Origin: Eublepharis macularius
Lineage: Eukaryota; Chordata; Lepidosauria; Squamata; Eublepharidae
NCBI RefSeq assembly: GCF_028583425.1
Contig: NC_072799.1
Location: 86,228,217-86,292,216, forward strand
Direction: 5' to 3'
DNA length: 64,000 nucleotides
The notes under the pieces were generated by a model, which was given only the letters and a program-made list of their open reading frames with translations, was not told the origin of the DNA and did not search any database. Shown one piece after another: positions 18,154 to 61,028 of this stretch; the stretch's first letter is position 1; every line of letters begins with the position of its first letter. Position numbers and translations under genes: made by a program.

Positions 18154-18372
18154 TCAGTTTGGAGTGGTGGTTAGGAGCAGCGAGACTAATCTGGAGAACA
18201 GGGTTTGATTCCCCACTCCTCCACTTGAAGGTCAGTCACAGCTCTCTCAGCCCCACCCACCTCACAAGGTGATTGTTGCAGGGATAATAACACACTTTGT
18301 AAGTTGCTCTGAGTGGGTGTTAAGTTGTCCTGAAGGGTGGTATATAAATTGAATGTTGTTATTATTGTCATT
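18154..18372 (+). mobile_element. tRNA-derived SINE (Sauria-type)
   Basis: AGTCAGTTTGGAGTGGTGGT head, GGGTTTGATTCCCCACTCCT, CTCAGCCCCACCCACCTCAC and the GGTGGTATATAAATTGAATG tail with (TTATTATTG)n. Followed at about 18370-18465 by a single arm of the foldback family and at 18795-18910 by a minus-strand SINE tail. Confidence 0.8.
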
Positions 18373-18935
18373 ATTGTTAATGAGAGTCCAGTAGCACCTC
18401 TCAGACCAACAGAATTTGTGTTAGGATATGAGTTTTTGTGAGTCACAGCTCACTTCTACAGATAAGATTAAAGGAGACAGAGAAAAGGTTCTCTGTATCC
18501 ACTTTCTCCATCCCATGCCTATTTCCATAAACCTTAATAACCCTCCCCACCAGTCACCTTTTTCTCCTGTGAGGATGAATTGAGAATGGGAAAACCACAC
18601 ATGGAAGGGAAGAATAAGAAGGTACTCAACAGGTAGAGAAATACTGAATTTCATGGGGGTCTGCTCTCAAGCGAATATGAATAGGCTTGAGCCATCCAAA
18701 AGAGATTGCTCAGAAACTAAAATGAAACAAAACTCTTAGTAGCACTTGACAAACTAACAACATTTATTTCAATAAGAGAAAACATACGGGAACTCTTTTA
18801 TTTAACATTCAATTTACATACCAACCGTTCAGGACAATTTAACACCCACTCAGAGCAGTTTACAAAGTATGTTGTTATTATTAACCCCACAACAATCACT
18901 TATGGGAAAGACTGAGGGTAGGAGGGGAGTTAATT

Positions 18936-20449: not shown

Positions 20450-20695
20450 GGACAGAATCCATGGGAGTTTATTGCAGCACCAGCTTTTGTGAGTCAGGGG
20501 CTAGCTCACTTCATCAGATGCAATGAAGTGTACATCTCTGGGAGATACATATATATATTTCCTATGGTTGGACATTCCATGTATCTGATGAACTGGATTC
20601 TGACTCACAAAAGCTCATGCTGGAATAAATTGTGTTAGTCGTATAAGGTGCTACTGGACTCCTGTTTTCTTTTGTTGCTACAGGCTTACATGGCT
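20450..20695. repeat. Foldback repeat family, subtype 2 (GTGAG stem), both arms
   Basis: The left arm on the minus strand reads CTGATGA, GTGAG...CTCAC, then AAAA. The right arm has GACTCACAAAAGCTCATGCT and AAGGTGCTACTGGACTC. See the finding on this family. Confidence 0.75.
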
Positions 20696-20878
20696 ACCCG
20701 TCAGGAACTAGAATGCACTAAGGAACCTCTGTACCAGTATGTATTATCGTATCCCACTTCTCCAAGCAGAGATAAGTTCCAGCAGCTAGCACTTAGGTTG
20801 GTTCGCTTGGAAGAAGGAGAGTTGTGGAGTGGTTGTAGGACTGGCTTCATTTTACAAATTAGAGATAAAGCACAGGTA

Positions 20879-24500: not shown

Positions 24501-24650
24501 ATAAAGGTCTTCAGGAAATGATAGAACATAACCTTTTCCACCTACAGCATACAGTTCCCTAACTGGAGGCACTGGGAAACCTGAAAGGCCAATACATACT
24601 CAGCCATTGAACTATACTATCTTACAGAATAACTACACTGTAGGAAATAA

Positions 24651-25150
24651 AATCAAAAAGAGTCCTGTAGCACCTTTAAGACTAACCAATTTTATTGTAG
24701 CCTGGGGGAGCCCAGTGGCGCCTGGCGTGGGCTTTCGGGGACCACAGTTCTCTTTGTCAGATGCATCTGACGGGGAGAGCTGTGGTTATCGAAGGCTTAT
24801 ACTACATAGGAATTGGATGGTCTAGCTGTTTTACTGCTGCAAACTAACACGGCAAACTCCTTTGAAGCCTCACCCAAGCCAACTGACCCCCACACCAAAA
24901 GGAGATGTTTACATTTACTAGCAAAGGAATGTTTTGGTTGCACCCTCCCTCTCCCCCCCAACTGCATCTTCTCTCTCCTCCCCTCCTCCCCCCTCCTCTT
25001 CTATATTTGACCAGTTTCTGTACTATGCATCTGACGAAGAGAACTTGATTCTCGAAAGCTTATGCTACAATAAAATTGGTTAGTCTTAAAGGTGCTACTG
25101 GACTCTTTTTGATTTTGCTACTACAGACTAACACGGCTAACTCCTCTGGA
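24651..25150. repeat. Foldback repeat family, subtype 1, long-loop copy, 12-bp TSD
   Basis: Flanked by the perfect duplication TGTAGGAAATAA (24639-24650 and 25151-25162). The left arm has GTAGCACCTTTAAGACTAAC. The right arm has CTGACGAAGAGAA, TTCTCGAAAGCTTATGCTAC, then GGTTAGTCTTAAAGGTGCTA and ends TAACACGGCTAACTCCTCT. A pyrimidine-rich loop of about 180 bp separates the arms. Confidence 0.85.
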
Positions 25151-25389: not shown

Positions 25390-26560
25390 CAAAAGGCTGT
25401 TTTCGGCCTTTTGGGGCCCATTTTGGCCTGGATCAGGGCTAAAACAGCCGGGATCGGGGCCGAAACAGCCAGTATCCAGTCGGTGCCAGGCTGGGGAGGG
25501 TTCCCCTGCCAGGCACCGACCTGATCCCAGCCGTTTCAGCCCTGAACTGGACCAAAATGGGCCCCAAATGGCCATTTTAAGTCTTTTGGGGCACATTTCA
25601 GTGGGATCGGGCCCATTTTAGGCTTTTGGGGCCCATTTTGGCCTGGATTGGAGCCAATCCAGGCTGAAACGGGCCTAAAATGGCTATTTTAGGCCTTTTG
25701 GGGCCCATTTTGCCCTGAATTGGGGCAAAAACGGCCCAGATTGGCGCCAAAATGGCCCAGATCTGGTCAGTGCCGGGTGGGGGAACCCTCCCCCACCCAG
25801 CACTGACAAGGTCCAGGTTATTTTGGCCCTGATCCAGGCCCAAACAGGCCCCAAATGGCCATTTCTGGCCCTCTGGGGCCTGTTTTGGCTGGGGTCAGGG
25901 CCAAAACCACCAGGATTGGGTCCGTGTCTAGCATTTTGGGCCCGTTTCAGCCTGGATTGGAGCCAAAATGGCCCTGATCTGGCCACTGCCAGGTGTGGGA
26001 ACACTCCCTCATGGTCAGCTGGCACTGCTGCAGCCTGCAATGCTCATCCTCCCAGCCTACAGTTTGGTGGAGGCGGAGCACGGCCCACGGCAGCCCCCAG
26101 AGCTGGCATCCGGCACCGCTGCAGCCTGTGCTGCCCATCATCCCGGCCTGCAGGCCAGTTGTGGCAGACAGCGGCCCACAGCAGTCTCCGGTGCCCGTCC
26201 TCCCAGCCTGCAAGCAGTGAGTATATCTTCTCTCCCCACCCCCGGTGTATTTTGCTGGCTTTGTTGTCTGTGTGGAGCTGCTCTAATCTGTCTTGAAACA
26301 CGCTCTTCTTGAATGTTACTATATGTCCCCCTTCCCCAGATGTACAGTGTGCACTGGAATTTTTAATTTAAAAATCTGTGCTTTGCTGACTTTGTTGACT
26401 GTGTGGAACTGCTCTAATCTGTCTAGAAAAGCATAGAAACACAATGTTTTTGAATGTTACTGTATGTCCCCCCTCCCCAGATGTACAGAGTGCACTGGCA
26501 ACATTAATTTTTATTTTAAAATCTGTGCTTTGCTGGCTTTGTTGTCTGTGTTGCCCAGTT
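25390..26560. repeat. Copy of the 28.2-29.8 kb hAT interior, termini missing
   Basis: Near-identical blocks are shared with 28440-29660: the GGCTGGGGAGGGTTCCCCTG module, TTTTGGCCTTTTGGGGCCC units, the CAGCTGGCACTGCTGCAGCC segment and the TTTGCTGGCTTTGTTGTCTG tail. The interior is built from short GGCC/TTTTGG modules, so long open frames on both strands (about 157 codons) are composition artefacts. Confidence 0.75.
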
Positions 26561-29837: not shown

Positions 29838-29945
29838 GATAGACATGAAATAAGGTTGTAGTGTAGATGTCAACCGACACATGTGATTCATGGTGTTGAA
29901 ATCAGTAGTTCGAAATTTAGTATTTAAGCACTATATATTGTAAAG

Positions 29946-30184
29946 ATAGGAGTTAGCCGTGTTAGTGTGTAGTTGCAAAATAGTAAAGAGTCCAGCAGCA
30001 CCTTTAAGACTAACCCACTTTATTGTAGCATAAGCTTTAGAGGACCACAGCTCTCTTTGTCAGAGAGATGAAGCATGAAGCCGGAGGCCTCACTGGAGCA
30101 TCTGATGAAGAGAGCTGTGGCTCTCAAAAGCTTATGCTGCAATAAAGTGGGTTAGTCTTAAAGGTGCTACTGGACTGTTTACTA
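29946..30184. repeat. Foldback repeat family, subtype 1, 13-bp TSD
   Basis: Perfect 13-bp duplication ATATATTGTAAAG at 29933-29945 and 30185-30197. The left arm GGAGTTAGCCGTGTTAGTGT and CACCTTTAAGACTAACCCAC is answered by GTGGGTTAGTCTTAAAGGTG on the right; the centre is ATCTGATGAAGAGAGCTGTG and GCTCTCAAAAGCTTATGCTG. Confidence 0.88.
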
Positions 30185-30199
30185 ATATATTGTAAAGGT

Positions 30200-31395: not shown

Positions 31396-31502
31396 TTCCT
31401 CAACCAAGAGCATCCGCTTGCCCCTCAGCTAGAAACACAGCCCCTCAATGATGGTTGTTGTGGATTTTCCAGGCTGTATCGTCATGGTCTTGGCATTGTA
31501 GT

Positions 31503-31544
31503 TCCTGACGTTTCGCCAGCAGCTGTGACTGGCATCTTCAGAGG
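31503..31544 (-). ncRNA. Hammerhead ribozyme-like motif in PLE terminus
   Basis: On the minus strand: CCT, CTGAAGA, one base, GCCAG...CTGGC (stem II), GAAA, CGTC, AGG. CCT/AGG can form stem I, and A-C/G-T would give a 2-bp stem III before the GTC cleavage triplet, the minimal form known from Penelope elements. One unpaired base between CTGAAGA and stem II departs from the consensus. The plus-strand copy at 34588-34629 has CAAA instead of CGAA, so its core is mutated. Confidence 0.5.
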
Positions 31545-31682
31545 TGTAGCACCGAAAGACAGAGATCTCTCAGTGTCAAACTGTGGAGAAGATGTTAGCA
31601 GGTAATTTATATCTACTCAGTAAGGTGGGTTTGGGTTGCGTCATCCTGTAAGAGTTTCCCAGGGTGGAATGCTAATGGAATG

Positions 31683-33788
31683 CTAATGCTTCACTGTATC
31701 CTGAGGAGGTTCTTTTGCATATGGATTGGTGCTTGATATGCTAATCTTATCTGCAGGGCTATTGTAAGATGTAGAGTATTTTGTTAGCCTGGTGTTTTTC
31801 AGGACTGGAAACCATGCTCTATTCATTCTTAAAGTATCCTCTTTCCTGTTGAAGTTGTGCTTATGCTTATGAATTTCAATGGCTTCCCTGTGCAATCTGA
31901 CAAAGTAGTGGGAAGTGTTGTCCAGTATTTTGGTGTCCTGGAATAAGATACTGTGTCCTGTTTGAGTTAGGCTATGTTCAGCCGCTGCTGATTTTTCAGG
32001 TTGGCCAAGTCTGCAGTGTCTTTCATGTTCTTTTATTCTTGTCTGGATGCTACACTGTGTGATCCCGATGTAAACTTGTCCACAGCTGCAGGGTATGTGG
32101 TATACTCCTGCAGAGGTGAGGGGGTCTCTACTGTCTTTTGCTGATCGTAGCATCTGTTGTATTTTTCTGGTGGGTCTGAATACTGTTTGTAGGTTGTGCT
32201 TTTTCATAAGCTTTCCCATCTGATCAGTAATTCCTTTGAAATATGGCAAAAACACTTTTCCTGTGGGAGACTGTTTTTCCTTAGTTGTTTGATTTATCCT
32301 TGGTTTAATTGCTCTTCTGATTTCATTTCTGGAGTAGCCATTTGCTTGAAGTGCATGGTTTAGATTATTAATTTCCTCGTTGAGAAAGTGCGGTTCACAT
32401 ATCTGCCTTGCACGGTCTACTAATGTTTTTATTATGCCTCTTTTCAGTCGAGGGTGGTGATTGGAGTTTTTGTGTAAGTACCGATCTGTGTGAGTTGGTT
32501 TCCTGTAGACCTTATGACCTAACTGAAAGTTTGCTTCACGGATGACCAAGGTATCTAGAAATGGGAGTTTACCCTCGATTTCTTTCTCCATTGTGAATTG
32601 TATGTTCAGGCGGATATTGTTGAGGTGGTTTAAAAACTCCATCAATTCTTCCTCACCATGGCTCCAAATGATAAAGGTATCATCCACGAACCGGAACCAG
32701 ACTATAGGTTTGTGGGGTGCTGATTCTAGAGCTGTTTTTCCAAAATGTTCCATGTAGAAGTTTGCTATAACTGGGCTGAGAGGGCTTCCCATGGCCACCC
32801 CATCCATCTGTTCATAGAATTCGTTATCCCATTGGAAGTAACTGGTTGTCAGACAATGGTGGAATAAGGCTGTTACATCCTCTGGAAAAATCTGATTAAT
32901 AAGTGTGATTGTGTCTTTTACTGGAACCTTAACCTTAGTAAACAGGGATACAACATCAAAACTGACGAGTATGTCCAGTGGATTGAGTTTCAGAGAACTG
33001 ATTTTGTTGATGAAATGTGCTGAATCTTTAATGTAAGACGTGGTTTTTCCGATGTGGTCCTGTAGAAGATTGGCCAGATGTTTAGCAAATTCATATGTCG
33101 GTGAACCAATGGCACTCACAATGGATCGGAGTGGGACTGGATCCTTATGAATTTTAGGAAGTCCATATAGTCATGGTGGCTGTGCTTCTGTCTTGCATAG
33201 TTTTCTGTGTGTGTCGGGATGAAGTGAGGAATTCTTGATCAGCGCATTTGTTAGCCTGGTGATTTTGCAGGTTGGATCTCGTTTTAGTGTATTGTAGGTG
33301 GAAGGGTCCAGGAGTTCCTTAATCTTCCTTTTGTATTCTGTTTTCATGATCACTGTGGCATTGCCTTTGTCAGCTGATAGAATAATGATGTCTGGATCCG
33401 CATCAAGGGTCTTGATGGCATTCCACTCCTTGCATGTTATATTGCTGGTGGGAAGCTTTGCCTTTTGTAGAATCCTGGCCATCTCTCCTCTTATTTCCTC
33501 AGCTTCCTCTTAAGGTAGATGACAAATGGCAGCTTCTACATTTGCAATGATGTCTTCCACAGGAATTTTGGTGGGGGTGACTGCAAAGTTTCCTCCCTTA
33601 GCCAAGATGGAGGTTTCTTCTGGTGAGAGTTGACGATCCATCAGCATTGTCGAGCATTGGGTTTGTCTGTCTTTTTTCCTGTAATTTATTAAACTTCTGC
33701 TTCTGTCTGGGAGTGTGGCTGGTAAACACCTGTTCCATCTTTCTGTAGGTGAGATTATCAATCTTGTCCCAATCATGACTTGGGTCAC
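31683..33788 (-). pseudogene. Penelope-like reverse transcriptase / GIY-YIG endonuclease, two stops
   Basis: The minus-strand frame from 33788 to 31683 is one reading frame broken by a TAA at about 33510-33512 and a TGA at about 33168-33170. The downstream 478-codon part shows RT landmarks: LVSFDVVSLFTKV, MGSPLSPVIANFYME and the catalytic FVDDTF. A C-terminal GIY-YIG nuclease follows ([17 protein letters not shown], then [10 protein letters not shown]). The N-terminal end is missing at 33790, where the inverted arm begins. PLEs copy RNA by target-primed reverse transcription using the linked nuclease. Two nonsense codons and 5' truncation make this copy non-autonomous. The TGA could be CGA decay. 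Confidence 0.92.
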
Positions 33789-33794
33789 CCAATG

Positions 33795-34685
33795 GCTACT
33801 CCAGAAATGAAATCAGAAGAGCAATTAAACCAAGGATAAATCAAACAACTAAGGAAAAACAGTCTCCCACAGGAAAAGTGTTTTTGCCATATATCAAAGG
33901 AATCACTGATCAGATGGGAAAGCTTATGAAAAAGCACAACCTATAAACAGTATTCAGACCCACCAGAAAAATACAACAGATGCTACGATCAGCAAAAGAC
34001 AGTAGAGACCCCCTCACCTCTGCAGGAGTATACCACATACCCTGCAGCTGTGGACAAGTTTACATCGGGATCACACAGCGTAGCATCCAGACAAGAATAA
34101 AAGAACATGAAAGACACTGCAGACTTGGCCAACCTGAAAAATCAGCAGTGGCTGAACATAGCCTAACTCAAACAGGACACAGTATCTTATTCCAGGACAC
34201 CAAAATACTGGACAACACTTCCCACTACTTTGTCAGATTGCACAGGGAAGCCATTGAAATTCATAAGCATAAGCACAACTTCAACAGGAAAGAGGATACT
34301 TTAAGAATGAATAGAGCATGGTTTCCAGTCCTGAAAAACACCAGGCTAACAAAATACTCTACATCTTACAATAGCCCTGCAGATAAGATTAGCATATCAA
34401 GCACCAATCCATATGCAAAAGAACCTCCCCAGGATACAGTGAAGCATTAGCATTCCATTAGCATTCCACCCTGGGAAACTCTTACAGGATGACGCAACCC
34501 AAACCCACCTTACTGAGTAGATATAAATTACCTGCTAACATCTTCTCCACAGTTTGACACTGAGAGATCTCTGTCTTTCGGTGCTACACCTCTGAAGATG
34601 CCAGTCACAGCTGCTGGCAAAACGTCAGGAACTACAATGCCAAGACCATGACGATACAGCCTGGAAAATCCACAACAACCATCAT
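33795..34685 (+). pseudogene. Inverted partial PLE copy (GIY-YIG end)
   Basis: A plus-strand open frame 33980-34450 repeats the C-terminus of the minus-strand ORF with only a few changes (ITQRS for ITQCS, SAVAEH for SAAAEH). It starts inside the RT-endonuclease linker and lacks the polymerase, so it cannot encode a full enzyme. Confidence 0.9.
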
Positions 34686-34712
34686 TCTCCAGCCGTGAAA
34701 GCCTTCGACAAT

Positions 34713-35110
34713 ACAGCCCCTCACCTTCTTGAAACAGCCCTTGGAAGTGGCCACTTGCCCAGGTGGGACATGGATGTAGAGAGGCCTCCAGCCGAATTCG
34801 TTCCTTGCTCTGGCAACCAGCTAGGCACAGAGCAAGAGAAGGCATTGCTTGGCAGCAGCTAACACTCTGCCTCCAGTGGCCCCTGACCAGCAAAGTGTGC
34901 AGATGGCTGTGTAAATGTGGCTGGCTGGGCAGCTGGCAGTTCTGAGAAGCAGGCGGTGCCCCATGCCATCCATCATGCCAGGCCGTTCCCGCTGCTGAGC
35001 CTCAGCTAGCGCCAGTGGACATGGCGAAGAGCAGGTGCCTCCAGGTGCTTCTACCAGCTGGCACTTCCCCTCCCTCCCCATTGCATGCATTTTTGCCAGG
35101 TGAGCCTCCC
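34713..35110. other. Intergenic, nothing recognised
   Basis: Moderately GC-rich; no feature identified. Confidence 0.45.
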
Positions 35111-35899: not shown

Positions 35900-38800
35900 C
35901 TTTAAAGATAACGAGGAGAAAATAATCATTAATTGTATTACAGCACTGAAAAGCTGTATTGTGCTATACACAGCCAGCTGGTAGCCTTTGGCTCATTGTT
36001 GTAGATTCATAAAGAATTTATTAAGCCAAAACAGATTTTGGATATATTTCCAAAGCTTGAGCTGTTGCCATGCCAGTCCTTGACAAGAGAGAAATATACA
36101 CTTATAGAAGTCAGCAGTATTTTTGCTGATGTAGACATTTTGGCTCCTTAAATAGTTATAATGTGCTCCTAAAATGTACTATGCTAATAACACTCTGGGG
36201 GAAAATGTAGTTAAGTTGTTATCTTTTTAGGACAGCACCTGCTGCTGATAATTATTTTCTATTTTTCTGAAATCTCATTAATCATGCCAACAGAACCTGG
36301 TTACTGTTTACTACCTATATTACCACAACTAGAAGCAGAATAACACTGGACTGGACTTGCAACAGAGGTCTAATAGGATCAGGCTCTAACCATACAATAC
36401 GGATAGAAAGATCTGTGTGTGCGATGATTAGGCCCAGTTGACACAAACCCAGAAGATGCTCTGAACTCGCGGTGGATTCCTATCATGCTGCGCTCGGACA
36501 TGAGATAGAGCAGTAGCCTGTATGCTTTTTCTTGGGGCCAGATGAATTTTCATCGCAAGTGCAGAGCCATCATCATCTTTCTACTCTCATCATTGCACAG
36601 TGAAATGGATTGATAGAAGAAACAACTAGCTGAAGGGGTGGTGGGAGCACTACATTGCTTTTTAGTCACACTTGCTATTTTAGAGGATGTAACCTTTCCA
36701 GACTCTACTCTTTGGAGTATTAAGGATCAATGTTGGTATCATCACCATCACATCTGGCTGAGTCAAAATAGCTGACACTTTAAAAACACACATACACACT
36801 TAGGTCTAGAATTGCATGTTGTTCCCTAGATTTCCCTAGATTTCTGCAATCTTAGGGTAAAGATAATTGTCCGAGGGGCGCCAACCCCGCGCCCTTGGTC
36901 TGGGCCCCCCCCCACCCCCGCCGGCAGCCCTGCGCCCGCTGGCACCTACCTGAAGCCTGGAGCGGGCGCCGGGAGTCGCTCCGCCAGAAGCGGCGGGGGC
37001 GGCGGGGAGGAGGGCACCCGCCAACCCGTCGGGCCACCGCTCGGCCGCGAGGGGAGGCAGAACGGCCCGCCCGAGCTGACGGCCGCGGCCGCCATTGCAG
37101 GCCCGCCCGAGGCCGGACGCCAGAGGCCGGAAGGCAGGGCCAGGCGGGATGAGACGGAGGCCGCGGCGCCCGGGGAGGAGGCCGCTGAGGGAGGAGTGCC
37201 GGGACCGGGCAGCGAGGCCGGCGCCGCAGGCCAGGCAGACAGCCCACGGCCAGACGACCACGCTGTCGCTGCAAGCCAGCCCAGCCTACAACCACCAGAA
37301 GGCACCAGGAGGGGGCGGGAGCGGTGGGTTGATGGACAGCCAGCTCGTCCATCTCCCTGAGCCGGTGCTGAGCCAGGGGCGGGTCCAGGAGGAAGACAGG
37401 CGGGAGCAGGGATGGGAGAGCGAATGGGGCCAGGCCAGCTGGGGCGGGCGGATGTGGCCGCACCTAGCGCAGGTGGTGGGGATGGCTCTAGGGGCGGGGA
37501 CCGGATGGGAAGGGTGGAGGTGGCACTAACAAGGGGAGGTATTTATGGAAGGGAAGCCCAGAGGCAGAGGAGGATTGCTCACAACTGCGTTTGCAGTAGC
37601 GAGACCAACCAGTCCTGAAGTGAAGGAGTGTGCTGGGACAGGTGGAGCCAAGTGCTGGCTGGCCAGGCCAGACCAGACGGAGGCCGCCTGGCTGACGCCT
37701 ACTGAGGACCCCTCCTCCTCCCCCTCCCCCTCTTGACGCCCTGGCAAGGGCCAAGCCGGCCCCCCCTGAGCCCTAGCCCCAGCATGGACCCGCCGAGGGA
37801 GCCCCCTGCCGCTCCGCCCTCCGACCCGCCGCCAGGGGGCGCCCTCCCACCTGACAAAGTGGTGGAGAATGCAGGCACGGATCCCGCTGTGAGATGGCCC
37901 CGCCCCCACTTGCCCACCCCCGCAGGGTGGACACGAGCACGCAGCTACCTACGGCCAGCAACCCTCCATCCGCCAACCCCGCCCGACCCGGCCAGCCCGC
38001 GGGTCGACCACCTGGAACCCATGGACCAAGCCGCCGCCGCCGCTGCCGGCACGCCGCTGGGGCCCGCCAATCCCCCAGCGATGGACCTGGGACAGCTAGG
38101 CCAATGGATGGCCGAACAGCAGATGCGGCTCCTGAGAGACCTGACGGCGCAGCAACAAGAGTCCCAAGCCACCCTCCTACGGGGGCTGGCGCAGGCCCTA
38201 GGCAGTGCCCCGGCGGGGCCCCCGCTCGGTCCTGGACGAGGGGTCCCTTTCCAGTTGACGAAGTTGGGTGAGGCGGACGAAATTGACGCCTACCTGGAGG
38301 CCTTCGAACGGACGGCCGAAGCAGCCCAGTGGCCCAGAGATCAGTGGGCCTTCATCCTCGGGCCCTACCTGACTGGCGAGGCCCAGGCGGCCTTATGGGC
38401 CCTGCCCAAGGAGGAGAGCGCCGACTACCGTCTGCTGAAGGCGGCCATCCTCGACCGCTATGAGGTGACCCCGGACTCCTATCGCCTCAAGTTCCGGACC
38501 ATCACGTATAAGAAGGCCGAGCGACCCCGAGCCCTGGTCAATGCGCTGCGGGATGCCGCCTATCGCTGGCTACGGCCCACCACGGAGGGGGAAAAGGGCA
38601 TTGCGGACCAGGTCGTGCTAGAACAGCTGCTAAATATCCTCCCGCCCAAGGCCCGCCAGTGGGTGGCCTGCAGCCGCCCCGCAAGCCTGAAGGAGGCCTC
38701 AGCGCTCCTCGAGAATTTTGCGGCCGCAGCGGATCCCCGGGAGCCGCCAAAGGACCTCGGAGGGAGCGGACGACCCAGCAACCAGGCCCCCCGCCCGACG

Positions 38801-41800: not shown

Positions 41801-44800
41801 GCGCACCCGTCCTCCGCAACCCCGATTTCAACAAGCCGTTCATATTACAGACGGACGCATCAGACACTGGCCTTGGGGCAGGAACACCCCATCCTTTTCA
41901 TTAGCCAGAAATTACAACCCTCCGAGAAGAAGTACGCCGTCGTGGAGAAGGAAGCCCTAGCAGTCAAATGGGCCATCGGGGCCCTCCAGTACTACCTAGT
42001 TAACAACCCCTTCACCCTCGTGACAGACCACGCCCCCCTTCTGTGGATGTCCCGGCTGAAGGACCATAACGCCAGGGTCTTACGTTGGTACCTCTCTCTT
42101 CTCCCCTTCAGCTTTACGACCCGCCACCGACCAGGCCGCCTGCACGCCAACGCCGACTTCCTTTCCCGGATGTTCGCCAGCGACCCCAAGGACGACGCAG
42201 AGCAAAGGGGGGGTGTGTCCGAGGGGCGCCAACCCCGCGCCCTCGGTCTGGGCCCTCCCCACCCCCGCCAGCAGCCCTGCGCCCACTGGCACCTACCTGA
42301 AGCCCGGAGCGGGCGCCGGGAGTCGCTCCGCCAGAAGCGACGGGGCCGGCGGGGAGGAGGGCACCCGCCAACCCGTCGGGCCGCCGCGAGGGGAGGCAGA
42401 ACGGCCCGCCCGAGCTGACGGCCGCGGCCGCCATTGCAGGCCCGCCCGCGGAGGGCCCGAGGCCGGACGCCAGAGGCCGGAAGGCAGGGCCAGGCGGGAT
42501 GAGACGGAGGCCGCGGCGCCCGGGGAGGAGGCCGCTGAGGGAGGAGCGCCGGGACCGGGCAGCGAGGCCGTCGCCGCAGGCCAGGCAGACAGCCCACGGC
42601 CAGACGCCCACGCCGTCGCTGCAAGCCAGCCCAGCCTACAACCCCCAGAAGGCAACGGGAGGGGGCGGGAGCGGTGGGTTGACGGACAGCCAGCTCATCC
42701 ATCTCCCTGAGCCGGTGCTGAGCCAGGGGCGGGTCCAGGAGGAAGACAGGCGGGAGCAGGGATGGGAGAGCGAATGGGGCCAGGCCAGCTGGGGCGGGCG
42801 GATGTGGCCGCACCTAGCGCAGGTGGTGGGGATGGCTCTAGGGACCAGCCAGTCCTGAAGTGAAGGAGTGTGCTGGGACAGGTGGAGCCAAGTGCTGGCT
42901 GGCCAGGCCAGACCAGACGGAGGCCGCCTGGCTGAGGCCTACTGAGGACCCCTCCTCCTCCCCCTCCCCCTCTTGACGCCCTGGCAAGGGCCAAGCCGGG
43001 CCCCCCTGAGCCCTAGCCCCAGCACGGACCCGCCGAGGGAGCCCCCTGCCGCTCTGCCCTCCGACCCGCCGCCAGGGGGCGCCCTCCCGCCTGACAATAA
43101 TCATAACATTCTTAATAGATCTAGAGGAGTTAGCCATGTTAGTCTGTAGTTGCAAAATAGTAAAGAGTCCAGTAGCACCTTTAAGACTAATCAGCTTTAT
43201 TGTAGCATAAACTTTTGAGAACATCTGACAAAGAGAGCTGTGGTTCTCGAAAGCTTATGCTACAGTAATGTTGGTTAGTCCTAAATGTGCTACTAGACTC
43301 TTTACTATTCTTAATAGAAGCTCCATGGGTTTACCCGAGGAATTTGATCATCGATTGAAGACACTGGAATAGTTTAGTTCACTATCCTTGCAGAGTATTG
43401 CATTCACCTTGTCATTCTGGCATTCTCAAATCAGGTCATCTCCTAACTCCTCTGTTTTTTCCCTCCCCTCCACTGTTTGCTCTGTCAGGAAAAGGAGGGG
43501 GGCAGGGCCCTTTTCAAGGCTGTTTTGGCCTTTGAGGGAGGACTCAGTGGGGCCAGGCCCAGAAGCAACCAGTAGGTGACTTGATATTACATGACTTCCA
43601 TGACTCACCCAGGCCAGGCTGCTGGCTGCTGTTCAAGCTGAAAGGATTTATTGAAATTTTTTTAGATCCCTACAGGTTTCGCTTTATGCTTCATTGGGGG
43701 ATTATCTATGGAGTATTTCATCAGGTGAAACATGAAATACTCCATAGAAGATCCCCTGATGAAGCATAAAATGTGTAGGGATCTAAAAACCTTTAATAAA
43801 TCCTTTCACTTTGCATCTGGTTCTACTTCTTTCTTTCGCTCTCTTTCTTGTGCAGCCATTGTTTCTCCTGTTTGCAACTGTTCAACAGCAGCCAACCACT
43901 ACACTACACTGGCTTGTGGGGGGGGGGGCACAAGCCAGTGTAGTGTAGTGGTTGGTAGGATGTGGGAGACAGTCACAGACTGTCAGCCTAACCTACCTTT
44001 CAGGGTTGTTGTGTGGATACTGTGGAGGCAAGGCAAGCTGCTTTGGGTCCCCATTGTGGAGAAAGGCCGTATGTAAATGAAGAAAATTAAGAAATGTAGG
44101 TGATTGTGGGAGGGGCAAATAGAATATGGTTAATGGCATGGAGGCTGCCAGGAGGAGAGAAAATGTGGGGAAGGGGATAACAGGGAAAAGTGAAGTACTC
44201 CCCGCAAGTCCTTACATGTTTCCCACCAGGCAACTGTGTCTGGCCCAGCCGGCACCACAGAACTGAGCCATAGGGGGGGAGAGTGAAGATGAAGACGGGG
44301 GAGGGTGCAAACAAAGGTGAATAAAAGGGGGGGGGGAGGAAGCAGGAAAAGGAGGAGAGGCTATGGGGGCCAGGGAAGGGAAACAGGACATGGTGAGGGA
44401 GGGGAAAATGAGATACTCCTGCAAGTCCTTTCGGGTCCCCACCTGTAACACTCCTATTTTCTTGTTAGAATGCCCAGTTTGTTCATAGAAGTCATTTTGT
44501 TCTAAGCAGCTGTATTAGCATGGTCTCTGGAGACTGAGTATGTGTGTGTGTGTCGTCTGTATCTAAGCTTTATGGAGTCCAGAGCAACCGTAAAAGGATT
44601 TTTTTGACAGGCACTTTCCCCTCTGTGTCCTAGACTGTACATTTAGCAACCATAGTACAGAGAAATATTGAGCCTGAAATCCTACAATGCCATTTTAACA
44701 TAATAACTTCTTACATTAGTTCTGTGCTCGAACAACTGCATCACAAACTGAAGACCAACTGTGTCTTATAAATAAAATGCAGCACTTACAGCATCAGCTT

Positions 44801-47800
44801 CTTTTCCATCAATCATCTCCAGGTCATCAAGAAACCATTTTTCAGAGATTTCATACTTCTCATCAAGGCCTATTCTAAAATGTTTCACCATAGATATTTG
44901 TACTTCTTCACCTTTGGTCACTGCAGGAGAAAAACAAGAAAACTGAAAATGGATTCTTTATTAAAAACATGATATGACAACTGGTGTGCAGAAGGTTTTG
45001 CAACTTGTTGTGCTTGGTGACTTTTAGCAAACTGTATTCTGTATATCTGTGATTTTTATTAACAAAAAGTATAAGCAGCAATACATAATGTAAATAGCTT
45101 TTTAAAAGATGGTAAAAAGTGAATGGTTAATTGAGAGCCCGCCTTGAGTCTTTTTTGGAGAAAAACAAATTAAATAAATGGTTAGTATTTTTTTAAATAA
45201 AAACAAGCAAATTTACTGGAGAGATTTTACTTGGAACATAGTTAAATACATATAAGTTTTGGTCTTGTTTAGCCTCTCCCCTTCCTGGACATTGTCATAA
45301 TCTTTCCATTTATACTATTAAAAACTGCAAAGAAGAATTAGAACTGTTGCACCCATATTATTGATTTCTTTATTAACAAAATGTATTGAATGATTTATAA
45401 AGAAGGTTTTTAAAGATTTATAAAGAGCCAGGATACTTTATTATTTGGGAGACAGGAAAGGAATGGGTGGCAAACATGCATAAGAAACTGTTACATTACA
45501 TTCAGGGGTGGAGAAGGAGGATAAAGAATGCGCACATAGAAACTATGATGAGATTGGTACCATGGCTGTGGTGGAGAAAAAGATGCAATCAAAGATTTCT
45601 GGGCTTTAACGTACTCTAAAACTTCTGCAGTCCCAAAAAGTCAAACTGAACTGATTTTTGTGGATGGAATGAGATATGCTGTTGCAGTTATTTAACTGTC
45701 TATATCCTGCTTTCCTCCCCAATGAGAACCCAAAGCTGCATACAACCTTGTCCCCTTCTCTATTTCATCCTCACAACAACCTTGTGAGGAAGGTTAGGTT
45801 GAGAGAGGGTGACTGACTCATGGTCACCCAGCAAACTTCCAGATCCCCCAGGATGCTGCAGATCCTATTCTCATACTCTAAGCACCAGGCAACACTAGTT
45901 TGAAGAAATGTTTCTTAACATGGCAAATTTTGGGTACAACTGTATGAAAGATATGTCCTGTTCTAAAAAGCTTGCTGTGCACATTCCAGTTATTGGGTAT
46001 GCACCCCCAGAATTTCCTGTTTCCTTTTCCTCCCCCTTCAGCTCCCTGCATTCCAACAGCTCCTCTAACAATTGGGAACTCTTTATTAAGCAGTTGAAGG
46101 GATTGCTTTTTGAAAATGGGGGAGAGCTGGTTGCAGAAGTTGTGCTATGGAATCTGTTCATCATGAAGCCTTTGGGATCATAACCAACACCAAGAAGACA
46201 TTTCCTAATTAGCTACCCTCTTCCTTTTCATCATTAAATTATGGGACAATATGGGCCATTTCCACACACGTTGAATAATGCACTTTCAATGCACTTTCGC
46301 AATCCTTTTGAAGTGGATTTTTTGTTCCACACATGGAAAATCAGTTTCAAATGTTCACTAAAGAGTATTGAAAGTGGATTATCCAACGTGTGTGGAAGCA
46401 GCCATTGTGTGCTGATTTCAGCTAAGTGCAAACACAAGAGAACAATTTGTTGGAAAAAAACCATGCAGTCTTCAGTTCTGGCATAGCGTATTAATTTCAA
46501 TGCAATGTGAAAATGTAATATAATGAAATTTTGGTTCAGTCATACATTTGAGTTTGAGGGTGCTAAAGCTTTTGTAAAGTGATTTTCTTCCTATGCATGT
46601 TATCAGACAGTGTGCTATCGTAGTTTAATAGTTTATCTGTTGCACTTATGGATTATATTTTCCATGCTATATTTTTGACTAACCTGCAATTTTTCTTTTG
46701 AATTAGTACAGAATTGCTAATATTGAACATGCATACCCACTAAACTTTTGCAAGTGCGTATATTACTGCCTAAACTCAAGCATAAATGGAGCTATCCAGC
46801 ATGCTGACTGAAGCTTATGGGCAGGTACACTGGTAAGAAGATGAGTGTTTTTATTGGGGCACACTTCATGGGCTGTCTTCTGAGACATACAACAAGCTGA
46901 AGGGATATAGATTTTAATTACTTTCAAGTAAATTTATTTAATAGTGAACCAATTGACATTTGGAGCAAGGCTATTCTTTTTACATGTGTTTAAAGAGCAA
47001 CAAGCAGAATTCTGAAGGAACTGGGGACCTTTTTTTTTGGGATGGGGTCCTAATTCATGGTCTAAACTCCTGATTAAATGATTTTCTGGAACAGCCCAAA
47101 GGGTCATCTAGTCTCGTACCTTAGGATTTTCCATCAGTGGACTCGAATTTTACTGCCTCCCCCTTCCCACTGCAGCCTAGTCATCTCTATGAAATGCTAG
47201 CTCAAAGGGGACTTTACCATGCGCAGAAAAGACTTAGGAGCTAATTTACTTAGTGAGCACATGGTTATGTTCACTGGCCCCACTTTGATGCATTCTTTCT
47301 AATCTGTGTACAGAACCTGCCCTTGCACGATTTTGTGCATGCATAGATTTTGCCATGTGATCAGAAACTGTATTTTATGTGCTCTGAACAGAACCCTGTT
47401 GCATGGACTTAATGCAGCTGTGGTGAAGCCAGTAGTCATGAGCTCCCCTACACATTTCTACACAGACAAGCACGTGAACTAAGCTATAGACCTTAGAGCC
47501 AAACTAAAAGTGACGTCTTACACAGGTTGGACACTAGTCGGCTTCCCTCAAGTTTTGATGGGAAATGTAGGCATCCTGGTCTTGCAGCTGTAATGGAGAG
47601 CCAAGCTGTAAAACCAGGGCGCCTACATTTCCCATCAAAACTTGAGGGAAGCCGACTACTGTCCAACCTGTGTAAGACATCACTTGTAGTTTGGCTCTCA
47701 GTGACCCAAGGCAATCTAATTTACTCGGATTTTACCCATTTTAGACTTAATACAGCAAAAAGTACAACTAACCATGCAATGCTAAGAAGAGTTATACCCT

Positions 47801-54343: not shown

Positions 54344-54735
54344 AAGAAGGGTAGCGGTGTTTGTCTGTAGCAGTAGAAAAGAGCATGAGTCCAGTAGCAC
54401 CTATAAGACTAACAAAATTTGTGGTAGGGGATGAGTTTTCATGAGTCACAGAAGTGAGCTCACTTCTGTGACTCGCTTTTGTGAATCACAGGTCATTTCT
54501 TCAGATACCTGAAGAAAGGACCTGTGACTCACAAAAGCTCATATCCTACCACAAATTTTGTTAGCCTTATAGGTGCTATCAGATTCTTGCTCTTTTCTAC
54601 TGTGTTAGTCTGTTATTGCAAAAAAAAACATTTAAAAGCCCAGTAGCACTTTCAAGACTTAACCACATTTATTTCAATATGAGGTTTGGTGAGTCACTGC
54701 TTACTTTGTCAGATATGCGAAAATCAAATTGGGAA
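54344..54735. repeat. Foldback repeat family, subtype 2, one full and one half copy
   Basis: Full copy about 54344-54610: GTCCAGTAGCACCTATAAGA...CTGAAGAAAGG...GACTCACAAAAGCTCATATC...GGTGCTATCAGATTC. A second arm follows to about 54735 (CCAGTAGCACTTTCAAGACT, GGTGAGTCACTGC). Confidence 0.75.
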
Positions 54736-54975: not shown

Positions 54976-55063
54976 GTTACAGAACTTTAAGGGGGGGGAG
55001 GATGGGCAGCCTTTCCTATATTTAATTTTTTCCCCTGCCCTTCCTTCGGTGCGATAGATCTAA

Positions 55064-55250
55064 ATAGGTAGCCCTGTTTGTCTGTAGCAATAGAAAAGAG
55101 TAAGAGTCCAGCAGTGCCTATAAGACTAACAAAATTGATGGTAGGGTATGAGCTTTCATGAGACACAGCTTACTTCTTCAGATACCAGAGGTGGCTTGCT
55201 CTACCACTAATTTTGTGAGTCTTAGAGGTGCTACTGGACTCTTTCTTTTT
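55064..55250. repeat. Foldback repeat family, subtype 2
   Basis: AAGAGTCCAGCAGTGCCTAT, GGGTATGAGCTTTCATGAGA and CTTCTTCAGATACC on the left; GTCTTAGAGGTGCTACTGGA on the right. On the minus strand the left arm reads CTGAAGA...GAAAGCTCATACC. Confidence 0.75.
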
Positions 55251-55859: not shown

Positions 55860-56043
55860 CAGCGATTGCCCATAGACAATACATGATTGCCCATAGAGAA
55901 TGCATGATTGCCAATAGGGAATAATGAAGTGTAAGATTGCCAGTAGGGAATAATGAAGTGCAAGATTACCAATAGGGAATAATGGAGAATTTTCTTGCCC
56001 ATAGAGAATAATGGAAATCGTGCTTGCCCATAGGGAATAATGG
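55860..56043. repeat. Tandem CCATAGGGAATAATGG array, part 1
   Basis: Diverged units such as GATTGCCCATAGAGAATGC and GATTGCCAATAGGGAATAATG, period about 29 bp (higher-order about 58 bp). Continues at 57600-57880 and 59545-59812. Confidence 0.85.
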
Positions 56044-57599
56044 TGTCATGGCCCAGTCGTAGAGTGAGGTCTCCTCTGGAGGAGCCTCTGGAGGAGAGGA
56101 GCCAGGACTCCTCAGGAGAAGAAGAGTTCTGTGTAGCCAGCCCTAGCCCTGACTCAGCAGAAGCCGGCAATCAGGAGCAGCAGCTGCTGGCTGATCAAAG
56201 CTCACAGCCAGCAGCTGAGACACCAGCACCCTCTAGCCCCAATACCACAGGGGAAGCTCAGCCAGGAACTTCCACAGGGGAAGCTCAGTCAGGGACTGCC
56301 AGCACCACAGGGGAAGCCCAGCCACGTTGCCCATGCCTGCTTTTGGACCTGACACTATCGGTAACTGACCTTGGACTGCGCCTGACCTTGCTCTTGGACT
56401 CTGGACTCACTCCTGGCGTTATCTCGTGCTCTGACCACCGGTTTGACCTGGCTTTCGCTCTTGGAACTCCCCTTATACTTTGGCATTAAGGCTTGGACTT
56501 GAGCCACCCTGCTTGGACTAGCCCAGCCCATGACAGATTGCTTCCACCCAAACTTCCCGGCATGGACGCGGCAACGCCCACCCCGGGGAGCCTGGCAATG
56601 CTGCAGAACCAGGTACAGCAACTAACTCAAGCACTGGTGGCGCTGCAGCAGCAGATTGCTACTCTCCTTGTTGCCCCTGCTGCACCTCAGCCTGTTAAAG
56701 GGGCAGGCAGCAAGATGGGCAACACCCTTGTTACTGGCCAAATCCCCTTTGCTGGGGGATTTTCCAAACTTTGTGGCTCACATCACCGCCGCCTTCACTA
56801 ACCCCCTGAAAGCCATCAAAGCTAACCAGAGAATCTGCTCCCTCACCCAGGGGGATGGGACCATAGCCCAATATACCACAGAATTTCGGTTACTGGCGCA
56901 GGACTTGGACTGGAATGAAGCAGCCCTGGTCGACCAGTACCTGGAAAGACTGTCTGACGAAGTGTTGGATGAAGTGGCCTGATCCGAACGACCAGGAGAA
57001 CTGCAAGCGCTCATTCTCCTATGTCTCTGCATTGATGGATGACTGGAGAGCCGGAGACAAGCGCATGCGCTAAGGCCTTCACCCCGGTCCTTGCCTGAAA
57101 AGATGGCTGAACCCACGCCAGTGGGGGTGTCTTGCAACCACTTGCCCCCAGAGGAAAAGGAGAGGCTCCGCACCCATAACCTCTGCTGGTATTGTGGTGC
57201 GGTGGGCCATTATGCCGATGGCTGCCCTGCCAAAAGAAGGACTCTAGCCATAAGCCTGGAGCAGGCACACCCTAAACAACTTGTGGAAGCAGCCAATGCC
57301 TCCGGTGACCTCCCCGAACCATTCCTTGTGCCAGTAAAGTTGTGCCTGCCTGATGGACGTTGGCTATTTGTCCTCTGTGTTCTGTGGATCTTGCCTGTGC
57401 CTGCTTTTGGACCTGACACTATTAGTAACTGACCTTGGACTGTGCCTGACCTTGCTCTTGGACTCTGGACTCACTCCTGGCATTATCTCATGCTCTGACC
57501 ACCGGTTTGACCTGGCTTTCACTCTTGGAACTCCCCTTAGACTTTGGCATTAAGGCTTGGACTTGAGCCACCCTGCTTGGGCTAGCCCAGCCCATGACA
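56044..57599 (+). mobile_element. Truncated LTR retroelement with Ty3/gypsy-type gag, 5-bp TSD
   Basis: The 5' LTR (56044-56535) runs TGTCATGGCCCAG to AGCCCATGACA with inverted ends TGTCATGG and CCATGACA. The last roughly 209 bp of the LTR recur at 57391-57599. TSD AATGG (56039-56043 and 57600-57604). Protease, RT, RNase H, integrase and the 5' half of the 3' LTR are missing, so the copy is internally deleted. It sits inside the CCATAGGGAATAATGG array. Confidence 0.85.
56562..57390 (+). pseudogene. Gag-like remnant with CCHC knuckle
   Basis: Met at 56562 (MDAATPTPGSLAMLQNQVQQ), coiled LTQALVALQQQIATLL, then a frame change to FPNFVAHITAAFTNPLKAIK and EFRLLAQDLDWNEAALVDQY in the capsid. After a stop, a nucleocapsid knuckle [14 protein letters not shown] appears near 57185-57226. 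The layout resembles Ty3/gypsy gag of the group from which the PEG10/RTL genes derive (by general similarity only). The frame is broken at least twice, and protease is lost at the junction near 57390. Confidence 0.8.
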
Positions 57600-57880
57600 A
57601 ATGGGGACAGCGATTGCCCATAGGGAATAATGGAAAGCACGCTTACCCATAGGGAATAATGGGAACAGTGATTGCCCATAGGGAATAATAGGAACAACAA
57701 TTGCCCATAGGAACTATTGGGAACAGTGATTGCCCATAGGGAATAAAGGAAACCATGCTTGCCCATAGGGAATAATGCAGACAGCGATTGCCCATAGGGA
57801 ATAATGGAGACAGCGATTGCTCATAGGGAATAATGGAAAGCATGCTTGCTCATAGGGAATAATGAAAACAGCAATTGTTA
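57600..57880. repeat. Tandem CCATAGGGAATAATGG array, part 2
   Basis: About ten units alternating GGGGACAGCGATTGCCCATA and GAAAGCATGCTTGCCCATAG with GGGAATAATG. Short minus open frames rich in IIPYGQ are shadows of this repeat. Confidence 0.92.
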
Positions 57881-57883
57881 GAA

Positions 57884-58650
57884 TCATAGAGTTGGAAGGG
57901 GTCTTACAAACCATCTAGTCCAACCCCCTGCCTTGTGCAGGATCAGCCTAAAGCATCTCTGACACATATTGATCCAGCCTCTTCTTGAAAACTGCCAGTG
58001 AGGGGGAGCTCACCATCTCCCTAGGCAGCTGATTCCACTTTTGAACTACTCTGACCATGAAAAAGTTTTTCCTAATAAACTTTGTGCATGTAATTTAAGC
58101 CCATTGCTTCGGGTCCTATCCTCTGCTGCCAACTGGAACAGCTCCTTGCCCTCCTCCAAATGACAGCCTTTCAAATATTTAAAGAGAACAATCATGTCCC
58201 CCCTCAACCTCCTCTTCTCCAAACTAAACATTCCCAAGGACCTCAGCCTTTCCTTGTAGGGCTCAGTCTCCAGACCCCTGATCATCCTTGTCGCTCTCCT
58301 CTGCACCCTCTCGATTTTGTCCACATCCTTTTTGAAGTGAGGCCTCCAGAACTGCACACAATACTCCAGGTGTGGCCTGACCAAGGCTACTGCCTTGGGG
58401 CTATGACCTCCTGCGATTTCGACGCTATGGCCCTTTTGATACAACCCAAGATTGAATTAGCCTTTTTTGCCACCGCATCGCACTGGGCCACTGACTGCTC
58501 ATATTTAGTTTACAGTCCACTCTTACCCCAAGATCCCTTTCACATATACTACTGCCCAGAAGTGTATCCCGCATCCAGTATTTGTGCTTCCCATTTTTGT
58601 GGCCCAGATGTAATACTGTGCACTTGTCTTTGTTGAAACCCAGAAGTTGC
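57884..58650 (-). mobile_element. CR1 LINE 3' end (RT C-terminus and 3' UTR)
   Basis: The minus strand ends CAACTCTATGATTCT, the CR1 3' terminus. Its translated frames read [55 protein letters not shown] and [19 protein letters not shown], the CR1 RT C-terminal region. A frame break occurs near 58430. 5'-truncated, as most CR1 copies are. Confidence 0.93.
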
Positions 58651-58910
58651 ATCATCCTTGGGCCCTTTGCTGTGGATCTTGGCCCCCTTCCCCTTTCCTT
58701 CTTGCTCCAATAAAGTTTGGATCCTATTCAGAGGCAGTATCTCTATTCTCTTTGACTTGCCCATATCCCCTCTTCCTTGATTCTGCTGCCAGGGAAGACA
58801 TTTGTCCTGTATTTTATAATCTGGTTCTTTCACCCCCTTCTTTTTCAGTCCTGTTTGGCTTGGTACATTTTTCACGTGAGTAGCTTTCCTCCCAGACTCC
58901 CCTCTGCTCC

Positions 58911-59109
58911 ATAGTAAAGTGTCCAGTAGCACCTTTAAGACTAACCAACTTCATTGTAGCATAAGCTTTCGAGAGCCACAGCTCTCTTCATCAGATGCAT
59001 CTGACGAAGAGAGCTGTGGCTCTCAAAAGCTTATGCTACAATGAAGTTGGTTAGTCTTAAAGGTGCTACTGGACTATACTATTTTGCTACTATGGCTAAC
59101 TCCTCTGGA
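58911..59109. repeat. Foldback repeat family, subtype 1, 11-bp TSD, best core
   Basis: Perfect 11-bp duplication CCCTCTGCTCC at 58900-58910 and 59110-59120. The left arm read on the minus strand gives CTGATGA, A, GAGAGC-TGTG-GCTCTC, GAAA, GCTTATGCTA (58956-58994). The right arm has CTGACGAAGAGAGCTGTGGC and TCTCAAAAGCTTATGCTACA. Confidence 0.9.
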
Positions 59110-59119
59110 CCCTCTGCTC

Positions 59120-59540
59120 CAGCCTCCTTTGGCTCAATATCAATAAAATACCAGTGTTTTCAAATTCTGGAAAACAGAGAAAGGAAGAAGAGAGAATTTA
59201 AATTGAAAGTCTCTGTAATGAAATGTGACTTATGTTTACAAGTATAATGTATAAAACATTCTTTAAAAACATGCTTAAAATACAGTTTAAAAATTAATTC
59301 TCAGATATTTATAAGGTTGTGGTTATAAGCTTCTACAAACTGGTTTATGTGGTAGCCAAATGTTTGTATGTTTGTAGATTGCAATTTTTTTTCTAAAAAG
59401 GCGCTCTCAAAAATTTTATGCAAGTCAGCTCACAAAATACATTTTTGGCTCACAGCACTGCACATCTTAGAGGGAACATTGGGGCCCACCCAATATCCAC
59501 TCGCGACCCACCAGTGGGCCACGACCCATACTTTGGGAAA
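59120..59540. other. Intergenic, nothing firmly recognised
   Basis: AT-rich, ending in a short GC-rich stretch (CCACTCGCGACCCACCAGTG) that looks like a repeat fragment. Confidence 0.45.
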
Positions 59541-59544: not shown

Positions 59545-59812
59545 GCCATAGGGAATAATAGAAACCATGCTTGTTCATAGGGAATAATGACAGTGAATGC
59601 CCATAGGGAATAATGAAAAGCATGCTTATTCATAGGGAATAATAAGGACAGCAAATCTCCATAGGAAATAATGGAAAGCATGCTTGTTCCTAGGGAATAA
59701 TAAGGAAAGCGATTGCTCATAGAGAATAATGGAAATCATACTTGACTACAGGGAATAATGCAGACACTGATTTCCCATAGGGAATAATGGGGACAGCGAT
59801 TGCCTATAGGGA
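59545..59812. repeat. Tandem CCATAGGGAATAATGG array, part 3
   Basis: GCCATAGGGAATAATAG, CATGCTTGTTCATAGGG and GCGATTGCTCATAGAG units, more diverged than part 2. Confidence 0.88.
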
Positions 59813-59814
59813 CA

Positions 59815-59990
59815 GAGGAGTTAGCCGTGTTAGTCTGTGGTAGCAAAATCAAAAAGAGTCCAGTAGCACCTTTAAGACTAACCAATTTTATTGTAGCATA
59901 AGCTTTCGAGAATCAAGTTCTCTTCGTCAGATGCATGGTACAGAAACTGGTCAAATATAGAAGAGGAGGGGGGAGAAGGGGAGGCCTAAA
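59815..59990. repeat. Foldback repeat family, subtype 1, half copy
   Basis: AGGAGTTAGCCGTGTTAGTC to GTAGCATAAGCTTTCGAGAA, TCTTCGTCAGATGCATGG and part of the long loop also seen at 24850-25025 (ACAGAAACTGGTCAAATATA, GAAGAGGAGG). Confidence 0.8.
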
Positions 59991-60485: not shown

Positions 60486-60825
60486 GTGAGTATTTATGAT
60501 ATTTCATGAGTGTTTAGTCTCTGAAGTCCCTGGGACTTTTGCTTGATGGCCTAAGGTAAGCTTTAGCCTCTCACCTCCAACATGGAGATAGTAATATTGT
60601 AGTATTGGGCTCTCTTATAAGATGGCTATAAGGATTACTGAGAACATATCTGTGAAGTGCATGGAACTCTTGAAATGTAATAGATAGATATGCTAATTAT
60701 TATTACTGAAGTGTATGATAGACACATAGACCACTCAAAGCACTGTTTAGAGTTTGGATACTGAATATATTACTTATTGTTATTTTCATTTACTTCATTT
60801 ATACTCCCCCCTTCTCTCCAATACC

Positions 60826-61028
60826 CTAACCTGGATAGCCCAGGTGAGCCTGGTCTTGTCAGATCTCAGAAGCTAAGCAGCATCAGCCTTGGTTAGTAAT
60901 TGGATGGGAGACCTGCAAACAAGACAAGGGTTGCAATGGCAAAACACTTCTGTTAGTCTCTTGCCATGATAACGCCATCAGGGGTCACCATAAGTCAGCT
61001 ATGACTTGAGGGCACTCTCTACCACCAC
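60826..61028 (+). mobile_element. 5S rRNA-derived SINE
   Basis: TAACCTGGATAGCCCAGGTG, CAGATCTCAGAAGCTAAGCA, GGTTAGTAATTGGATGGGAG and GTCAGCTATGACTTGAGGGC; the central CAGAGGCAGG block is partly deleted. Confidence 0.88.

Follow-up and report, generated by a model that had tools for sequence, protein, structure and literature searches.

Short foldback repeats in Eublepharis macularius DNA: probable head-to-head pairs of Penelope-like pseudo-LTR pieces, with a one-sided tail wherever target-site duplications flank them

A 64,000-nucleotide stretch of Eublepharis macularius DNA (NCBI RefSeq assembly GCF_028583425.1, contig NC_072799.1, positions 86,228,217 to 86,292,216), called the window here, contains a family of short foldback repeats and a Penelope-like element (PLE). 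All counts and coordinates below are within this window. An arm profile search (E up to 1) gave 19 arm matches, which form foldbacks A, B, C and D, the more diverged subtype-2 foldbacks S, T and U, and the single arms E, V and W. The terminal segments of the foldbacks are inverted head to head with their 3' ends outward, and the family is genuine. Copies are present at all four places (A to D) listed by an earlier sequence-only reading, which had proposed short non-autonomous elements carrying a hammerhead-derived ribozyme and mobilised by PLE machinery. The PLE is itself a foldback, with 896-bp arms that are 99% complementary and both 3' ends outward. In the list below, a tailed arm extends further at its outer 3' end than an untailed one.

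58911..59109, foldback D: left arm D1 antisense and untailed, right arm D2 sense and tailed, no spacer
59083..59109, plus strand, tail of D2: 27 nt, internally deleted when compared with the other tails
24651..25150, copy A: A1 inverted outer arm, untailed; A2 diverged direct inner arm, tailed; A3 direct outer arm, tailed
29946..30184, foldback B: tail on the left arm only, arms 36 nt apart
43120..43306, foldback C: tail on the left arm only
31448..34712, PLE insertion: two copies head to head, a long one on the minus strand with its untailed 3' end at 31448 and a 5'-truncated one on the plus strand with its tailed 3' end at 34712
34686..34712, plus strand, tail of the PLE right arm: 27 nt, no counterpart in the left arm

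The D arms meet at the palindrome TCAGATGCATCTGA. Copy A has an interior of ~160 nt. Its likeness to the canonical PLE anatomy, in which one pseudo-long terminal repeat (pseudo-LTR, pLTR) is inverted and two are direct (PMC3846280), is only rough.

Direct and perfect target-site duplications (TSDs) of 11-13 bp flank five of the eight foldbacks, the PLE included. They are TGTAGGAAATAA for copy A (12 bp, 24639-24650 and 25151-25162), ATATATTGTAAAG for B (13 bp, 29933-29945 and 30185-30197), ATTCTTAATAGA for C (12 bp, 43108-43119 and 43307-43318), CCCTCTGCTCCA for D (12 bp, 58900-58911 and 59110-59121, one base being shared with the element by ambiguity) and ACAGCCCCTCA for the PLE (11 bp, 31437-31447 and 34713-34723). 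In a control, matches of at least 11 bp were found in only 2 of 4000 random flank pairs. The TSD lengths given by the sequence-only reading hold for A, B, C and the PLE; that of D is 12 bp, not 11.

Exactly one outer arm is tailed in every TSD-bearing foldback (5/5: A, B, C, D and the PLE), the tail being 27-39 nt long. If each arm were tailed independently, exactly one tail in all five would have a probability of at most 1/32 by our own arithmetic. Foldbacks T and U fit the same pattern, though they have no TSD. The remaining members of the family are as follows.

20456..20707, subtype-2 foldback S: tailed right arm, left arm that ends just past the core, ~57 nt between the two
54346..54602, subtype-2 foldback T: tail on an internally rearranged left arm, right arm ending near the untailed site; ends set by homology
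55063..55249, subtype-2 foldback U: tail on the left arm, right arm ending near the untailed site; ends set by homology
59816..59984, minus strand, single arm E: tailed, with an intact hammerhead at 59890-59935 and upstream sequence in common with A3
18362..18471, minus strand, single subtype-2 arm V: untailed
54597..54722, minus strand, single arm W: tailed

A perfect 32-nt palindrome inside the left arm of T (T1, 54443-54474) repeats the helix II sequence, which suggests snap-back synthesis or rearrangement. One frame is open through the tail in all five tailed subtype-1 arms (59005-59109, 25035-25150, 29946-30059, 43120-43215 and 59816-59926), and its peptide ends like ...NTANSSG; in A3 and E it is open only downstream of a stop close to helix II. 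A run of ~33 open codons is not rare, and the copies are related. From this frame, the tailed subtype-1 arms could be the start of the coding frame of an undescribed PLE.

The arms carry a hammerhead-like core, which was located with a strict descriptor that asks for helix I (3 bp or more), CTGANGA, helix II (4 bp or more), GAAA and NNUH. Helix I is formed by the bases before CUGA paired with the bases after the cut. The cores used below are listed here.

58953..58999, minus strand, D1 core: intact by the strict descriptor
58996..59042, plus strand, D2 core: GAAA decayed to AAAA, predicted cut at 59032/59033
25026..25071, plus strand, A3 core: intact, predicted cut at 25061/25062, C3 at 25031
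34592..34638, plus strand, PLE right-arm hammerhead: decayed from GAAA to AAAA, with its ATG at 34598 and its predicted cut at 34626/34627

The strict descriptor was found at 4 places in the window (25031 plus, 59930 minus, 58994 minus and the PLE left arm at 31541 minus), in none of 60 first-order Markov windows of 64 kb and nowhere in 870,810 bases of prokaryote DNA (116 stretches, used as a real-DNA control). A loose descriptor gave 9 places, all in the foldback family or the PLE, and again none in the same prokaryote bases. These 116 stretches came from a scan of prokaryote contigs with a 15-base pattern, which was too short and matched at about chance level; the arm profile gave three weak matches on them (E 0.0001-0.0007), two of which overlap the searched word. 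Four scans of viral contigs for outside relatives gave no match.

Three foldback arms and the PLE left arm thus show the features of a minimal PLE hammerhead, namely CUGANGA, helix II, GAAA and helix I with no intramolecular helix III. The statement that each arm reads CTGANGA to GAAA was too strong, since the other cores are decayed or altered (e.g., CTGACAA and CAAAAGC). Helix I is GCAU/AUGC in subtype 1, GGUAU/AUACC in U1, GUAU/AUGC in S2 (a wobble intermediate) and CCU/AGG in the PLE. Helix II is GAGAG/CUCUC in the predicted minimal PLE hammerhead, and its compensatory changes among the copies are as the sequence-only reading described them. Cleavage is predicted between GAAAGCUU and AUGC.

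In an alignment of 17 cores 80% of the cells pair, and both the percentage paired and the covariation score were above all 500 shuffles and all slid versions of the alignment. The counts were CG:7, UA:4, UG:2 and other:1 for the helix I pair, and AU:7, UA:6, CG:1 and other:2 for the helix II pair. The number of pairs with changes on both sides was reached by 7 of 500 shuffles, and the number of pair types by 126 of 500. Percent paired and covariation score still exceeded the shuffles after removal of the PLE row. Because the rows are related, the independent covariation events are few, perhaps three or four by our reading. Two subtype-1 cores, of which one was composed from both D arms, formed helix I and helix II in free-energy folding.

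The AGC-loop-GCT helix of the sequence-only reading was rejected as helix III. In 6 of 14 sequences its inner pair does not hold, and in subtype 2 it cannot form; only one cell has a change on both sides, and the helix competes for the same bases with helix I, which the subtype-1 free-energy folds choose. A cut between GCUA and C was rejected along with it, since it depends on that fold. The hammerhead-derived core is supported by the covariation of helices I and II, and the fold is corrected to that of a minimal PLE hammerhead. Directly after GAA, 11 of the 17 cores have AGCT and the PLE has ACGT. Both words are self-complementary, as would be expected of a helix III between two RNAs; the evidence is weak, because a quarter of all four-base words with A and U at their ends qualify and two-strand folding gave no such helix (see below). 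Minimal PLE hammerheads that lack helix III and possibly cut as dimers are known (PMC7761336; PMC6155905), and such minimal, probably dimeric forms have been described since 2014/2017, including by Lunse et al. (2017; via PMC7761336). The foldback core is read as this stripped-down hammerhead, already known from PLEs.

We measured the arm ends from the predicted hammerhead cut. The TSD-anchored tailed ends lie 89 (A3), 86 (B1), 89 (C1) and 77 nt (D2, an arm with an internal deletion) past the cut, and that of the PLE 86 nt past it. The TSD-anchored untailed ends lie at 51 (B), 50 (C), 52 (D) and 59 nt (PLE), with A1 excluded from these measurements. The ends of T1, U1 and T2, set by homology and by eye, are at 86, 87 and 58 nt. 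Counted from its ATG, the window PLE ends at +88 and +115, with the cut at +29, 26 bp past the start codon. For the Anolis PLE, cutting and extension on both strands and two start sites were reported, with the start of reverse transcription at 111-118 (PMC11167929). The foldback and PLE ends lie near the Anolis start sites and so fall where the published enzyme would place them. One-sided tails are not a new observation, because in PMC3846280 one member of an inverted pLTR pair of rotifer Penelope was already described with a 31-bp tail; new here are the count of one-tailed insertions and its reading as paired start sites. The lopsided ends seem to record how the enzyme begins copying on both strands of a DNA break.

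At the opposite end of the arms, 10 of the 19 start ~1-6 nt upstream of CUGA by eye (A1, A2, B1, B2, C2, D1, D2, U1, V and W). A3, E and S2 extend further upstream, C1 and U2 start further downstream, and the starts of S1 and of the T parts are ambiguous. A TATATTT motif is present at 25002, 29 nt upstream of C3 in A3, and is also found upstream in E.

The PLE in the window has two coding regions.

31683..33170, minus strand, PLE open frame: reverse transcriptase (PF00078) and a C-terminal GIY-YIG-like region
33947..34450, plus strand, second C-terminal endonuclease-like region, in the right arm

The open frame shares 73% identity, over 93% of the query, with an 836-aa Anolis carolinensis protein (which may differ from the published PLE protein), the best of 3451 relatives, among 120 listed; this similarity points to a squamate source. 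The N-terminus of this protein aligns by eye with the window frame between the hammerhead ATG and the end of the tail, and the endonuclease region of the right arm is 72% identical to it over 134 aa. The endonuclease region gave no match to the Pfam GIY-YIG model, only a sub-threshold one to T5orf172 (E 0.012). We take its motif to be GIY-YIG; this putative name comes from the motif and from relative P0086, which matches PF01541.

We consider it probable that the foldbacks are head-to-head inverted pairs of PLE pLTR pieces, made by the reverse transcriptase/GIY-YIG protein of a PLE through two-sided target-primed reverse transcription. Judging from the TATA-like motif, the PLE RNA would start near helix I of the minimal hammerhead. 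The PLE protein may bind the 5' region, with reverse transcription beginning internally at one of two adjacent sites. The two target strands would be cut ~12 bp apart, as the TSDs indicate, and both used as primers. Starts at the 5'-proximal sites would give complementary DNAs (cDNAs) of ~85-125 nt each, ending at the RNA 5' end; one cDNA would begin at the distal site and carry the tail, the other at the proximal site and carry none. Head-to-head joining of the two cDNAs would follow, which in D and A would take place at the self-complementary helix I sequence ATGCAT, and repair would leave the direct TSD. Because the arms carry both sides of the cut, their templates were presumably uncleaved at the ribozyme site. 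Unprocessed RNA is the main in vitro substrate of the Anolis enzyme, and the hammerhead needs the protein (PMC11167929). Helix III could form only if two RNAs paired with each other at the palindrome AGCU.

A bolder extension, which we regard as quite unlikely, is that the dimer-type hammerhead acts as an RNA-RNA interface coupling two PLE templates in one complex, with a protein dimer forcing opposite start sites on the two strands. The pairing of the two RNAs would use two palindromes, AUGCAU in helix I and AGCU/ACGU in helix III. Such coupling would account for the single tailed outer arm in every TSD-bearing foldback here, for the joining of D and A at helix I, and for a ribozyme fold kept though cleavage is dispensable for insertion in vitro.

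Several results weigh against two-sided copying of PLE templates as the source of the foldbacks. The window has no autonomous PLE with the foldbacks' own arm sequence; the pLTR of the PLE present resembles the foldback arms only in core and geometry, and this PLE foldback is joined elsewhere than at the hammerhead. Foldbacks S, T and U have no TSD (longest flank matches 5, 7 and 4), and S departs from the one-tail rule owing to the early end of its left arm. An older, decayed palindrome lies inside copy A. Among 6 insertions tested, only in B were the two arms closer to each other than to any outside arm, and greater likeness between the arms of one insertion is therefore unsupported overall. 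In the Anolis work, hammerhead mutants left in vitro insertion unaffected, RNA ends at the hammerhead cut were not found, and the start sites were apparently alike between strands (PMC11167929). The absence of an overall strand difference is compatible with pairing inside each insertion, without demonstrating it.

The hammerhead assignment has its own difficulties. Without the PLE row, pairs with both-sided changes (155 of 500 shuffles) and pair types (473 of 500) are not significant. Of the other two cores folded by free energy, U1 formed helix I without helix II, and the PLE core formed helix II without the helix I proposed here; the proposed dimer helix III did not appear when two strands were folded together. 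A covariance model built from 16 foldback cores found all 16, a partial T1 core (E 0.17) and seven matches at E 2.3-9.6, and gave no match to the PLE hammerhead at E up to 10. The sequence-only reading had suggested a check against the Rfam hammerhead models. None matches the foldback cores, and the result is uninformative, because Rfam likewise misses the window PLE hammerhead, whose Anolis counterpart has published protein-assisted activity. Rfam matches to microRNAs (mir-3160, MIR821 and others) were all under the gathering score and were read as long foldback hairpins. Over the PLE arm, a sub-threshold match to the Hovlinc ribozyme (13.1 bits vs. 42.3) was taken as chance.

Inverted pairs could also arise by self-priming, in which an antisense template or cDNA snaps back and is copied into a palindrome; this explanation is favored for PLE inverted repeats in PMC3846280. 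The palindromic junctions in D and A1/A2 agree with it, and the 32-nt palindrome of T1 (54443-54474) resembles the product of snap-back synthesis. A simple snap-back, however, would copy the tail too and run into target DNA, whereas the second arm stops at its own site and the TSDs are direct; nor does it explain the 36 nt (B) and ~57 nt (S) between the arms. We think self-priming unlikely. A stable non-autonomous element, transcribed as one hairpin RNA and re-inserted whole by the PLE protein, would fit the spacer-free junction common to D and A1/A2 and the several similar copies in 64 kb. It is distinctly improbable, given that the junctions of B, C, S, T and U differ, that the tailed side varies between copies and that the PLE, with its 896-bp inverted arms, has the same one-tail anatomy.

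Animal retrozymes, which spread via small circular RNAs, are likewise short and hammerhead-bearing with TSDs longer than 4 bp, and PLEs have been proposed as their mobilizers (PMC7229834). As described there, retrozymes are tandem repeats with canonical type I hammerheads; the arms here are inverted and give no Rfam hammerhead match, no intramolecular helix III is supported in their cores, and the foldback cDNAs include sequence on both sides of the cut. We find this origin very improbable. A miniature inverted-repeat transposable element or foldback DNA transposon is hardly credible: inverted arms and short direct duplications are what it would leave, but the TSDs vary from 11 to 13 bp where a DNA transposon family would have a fixed length, and the termini are not mirror images, one arm being 27-39 nt longer in 5/5 TSD-bearing copies.

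The earlier inference of hammerhead-derived elements moved by a PLE was largely right, and PLE pLTRs placed head to head are the better description. PLE mobilization now has better support than TSD length, namely the one-sided tail, arm ends near the two published start-site positions and the similar geometry of the PLE. A separate class of non-autonomous elements is unneeded, because paired inverted, one-tailed and solo pLTRs (PMC3846280, where the solo pLTRs are also those of rotifer Penelope) and minimal hammerheads (PMC7761336) are already described for PLEs.

The mechanism of PLE transposition is still poorly known. Short foldbacks are compact records of insertion, since each preserves the joint along with the two ends and the two start sites. 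Should the one-tail rule prove true genome-wide, two-sided priming with unequal start sites would become a direct, countable test of the PLE mechanism, and the rule would suggest what many of the minimal hammerheads scattered by the thousands through animal genomes are.

Other repeats were noted in the window. Three stretches resemble 5S rRNA, at 5572-5688 (minus, 37 bits), 20070-20187 (plus, 36.1 bits) and 60822-60939 (plus, 28.5 bits), against an Rfam gathering score of 38; perhaps they are 5S-derived short interspersed elements. A related 29-bp tandem repeat forms three arrays (55876-56071, 57548-57945 and 59560-59870). One repeat block occurs twice, ~3.1 kb apart (25418-26551 and 28308-29663), with 90-99% identity over the longer stretches. 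Another is repeated ~5.3 kb apart (37105-37857 and 42455-43097, 97-98% identity), and its second copy stops just before foldback C. Inverted repeats without an arm-profile match are present at 47492-47701 (98-nt arms, 92%) and 3277-3655 (159-nt arms, 84%).

Among the literature matches listed for non-autonomous PLEs of reptiles, foldbacks, Poseidon/Neptune elements of lizards, solo pLTRs and squamate retrozymes, no title reports this foldback family, and the letters of the tail sequence gave no literature match. Among the closest known systems is the Anolis carolinensis PLE (PAc, Penelope/Poseidon clade; PMC11167929), to which the window PLE is linked by its 73% protein identity to an Anolis protein. 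The foldback arms differ from it in sequence; the main text of that paper mentions "inverted" once, for an end block, and gives start sites per strand, not paired within one insertion. In rotifer Penelope (PMC3846280), pLTRs are inverted head to head as in the foldbacks, with the 31-bp tail on one, palindromic junctions and unrelated sequence between the pLTRs; the TSDs there are 8-10 bp vs. 11-13 bp here, self-priming is the mechanism proposed there, and many short pairs are found here. Animal retrozymes (PMC7229834) are similar as short hammerhead-bearing repeats possibly moved by PLEs; they are tandem with canonical hammerheads, in contrast to the inverted pairs with minimal hammerheads here. 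The minimal type I hammerheads (PMC7761336) lack helix III, are proposed to cleave as dimers and are dispersed by the thousands in animal genomes. The foldback cores differ little from them, and what is added here is a possible site for such hammerheads, in paired pLTRs with TSDs.
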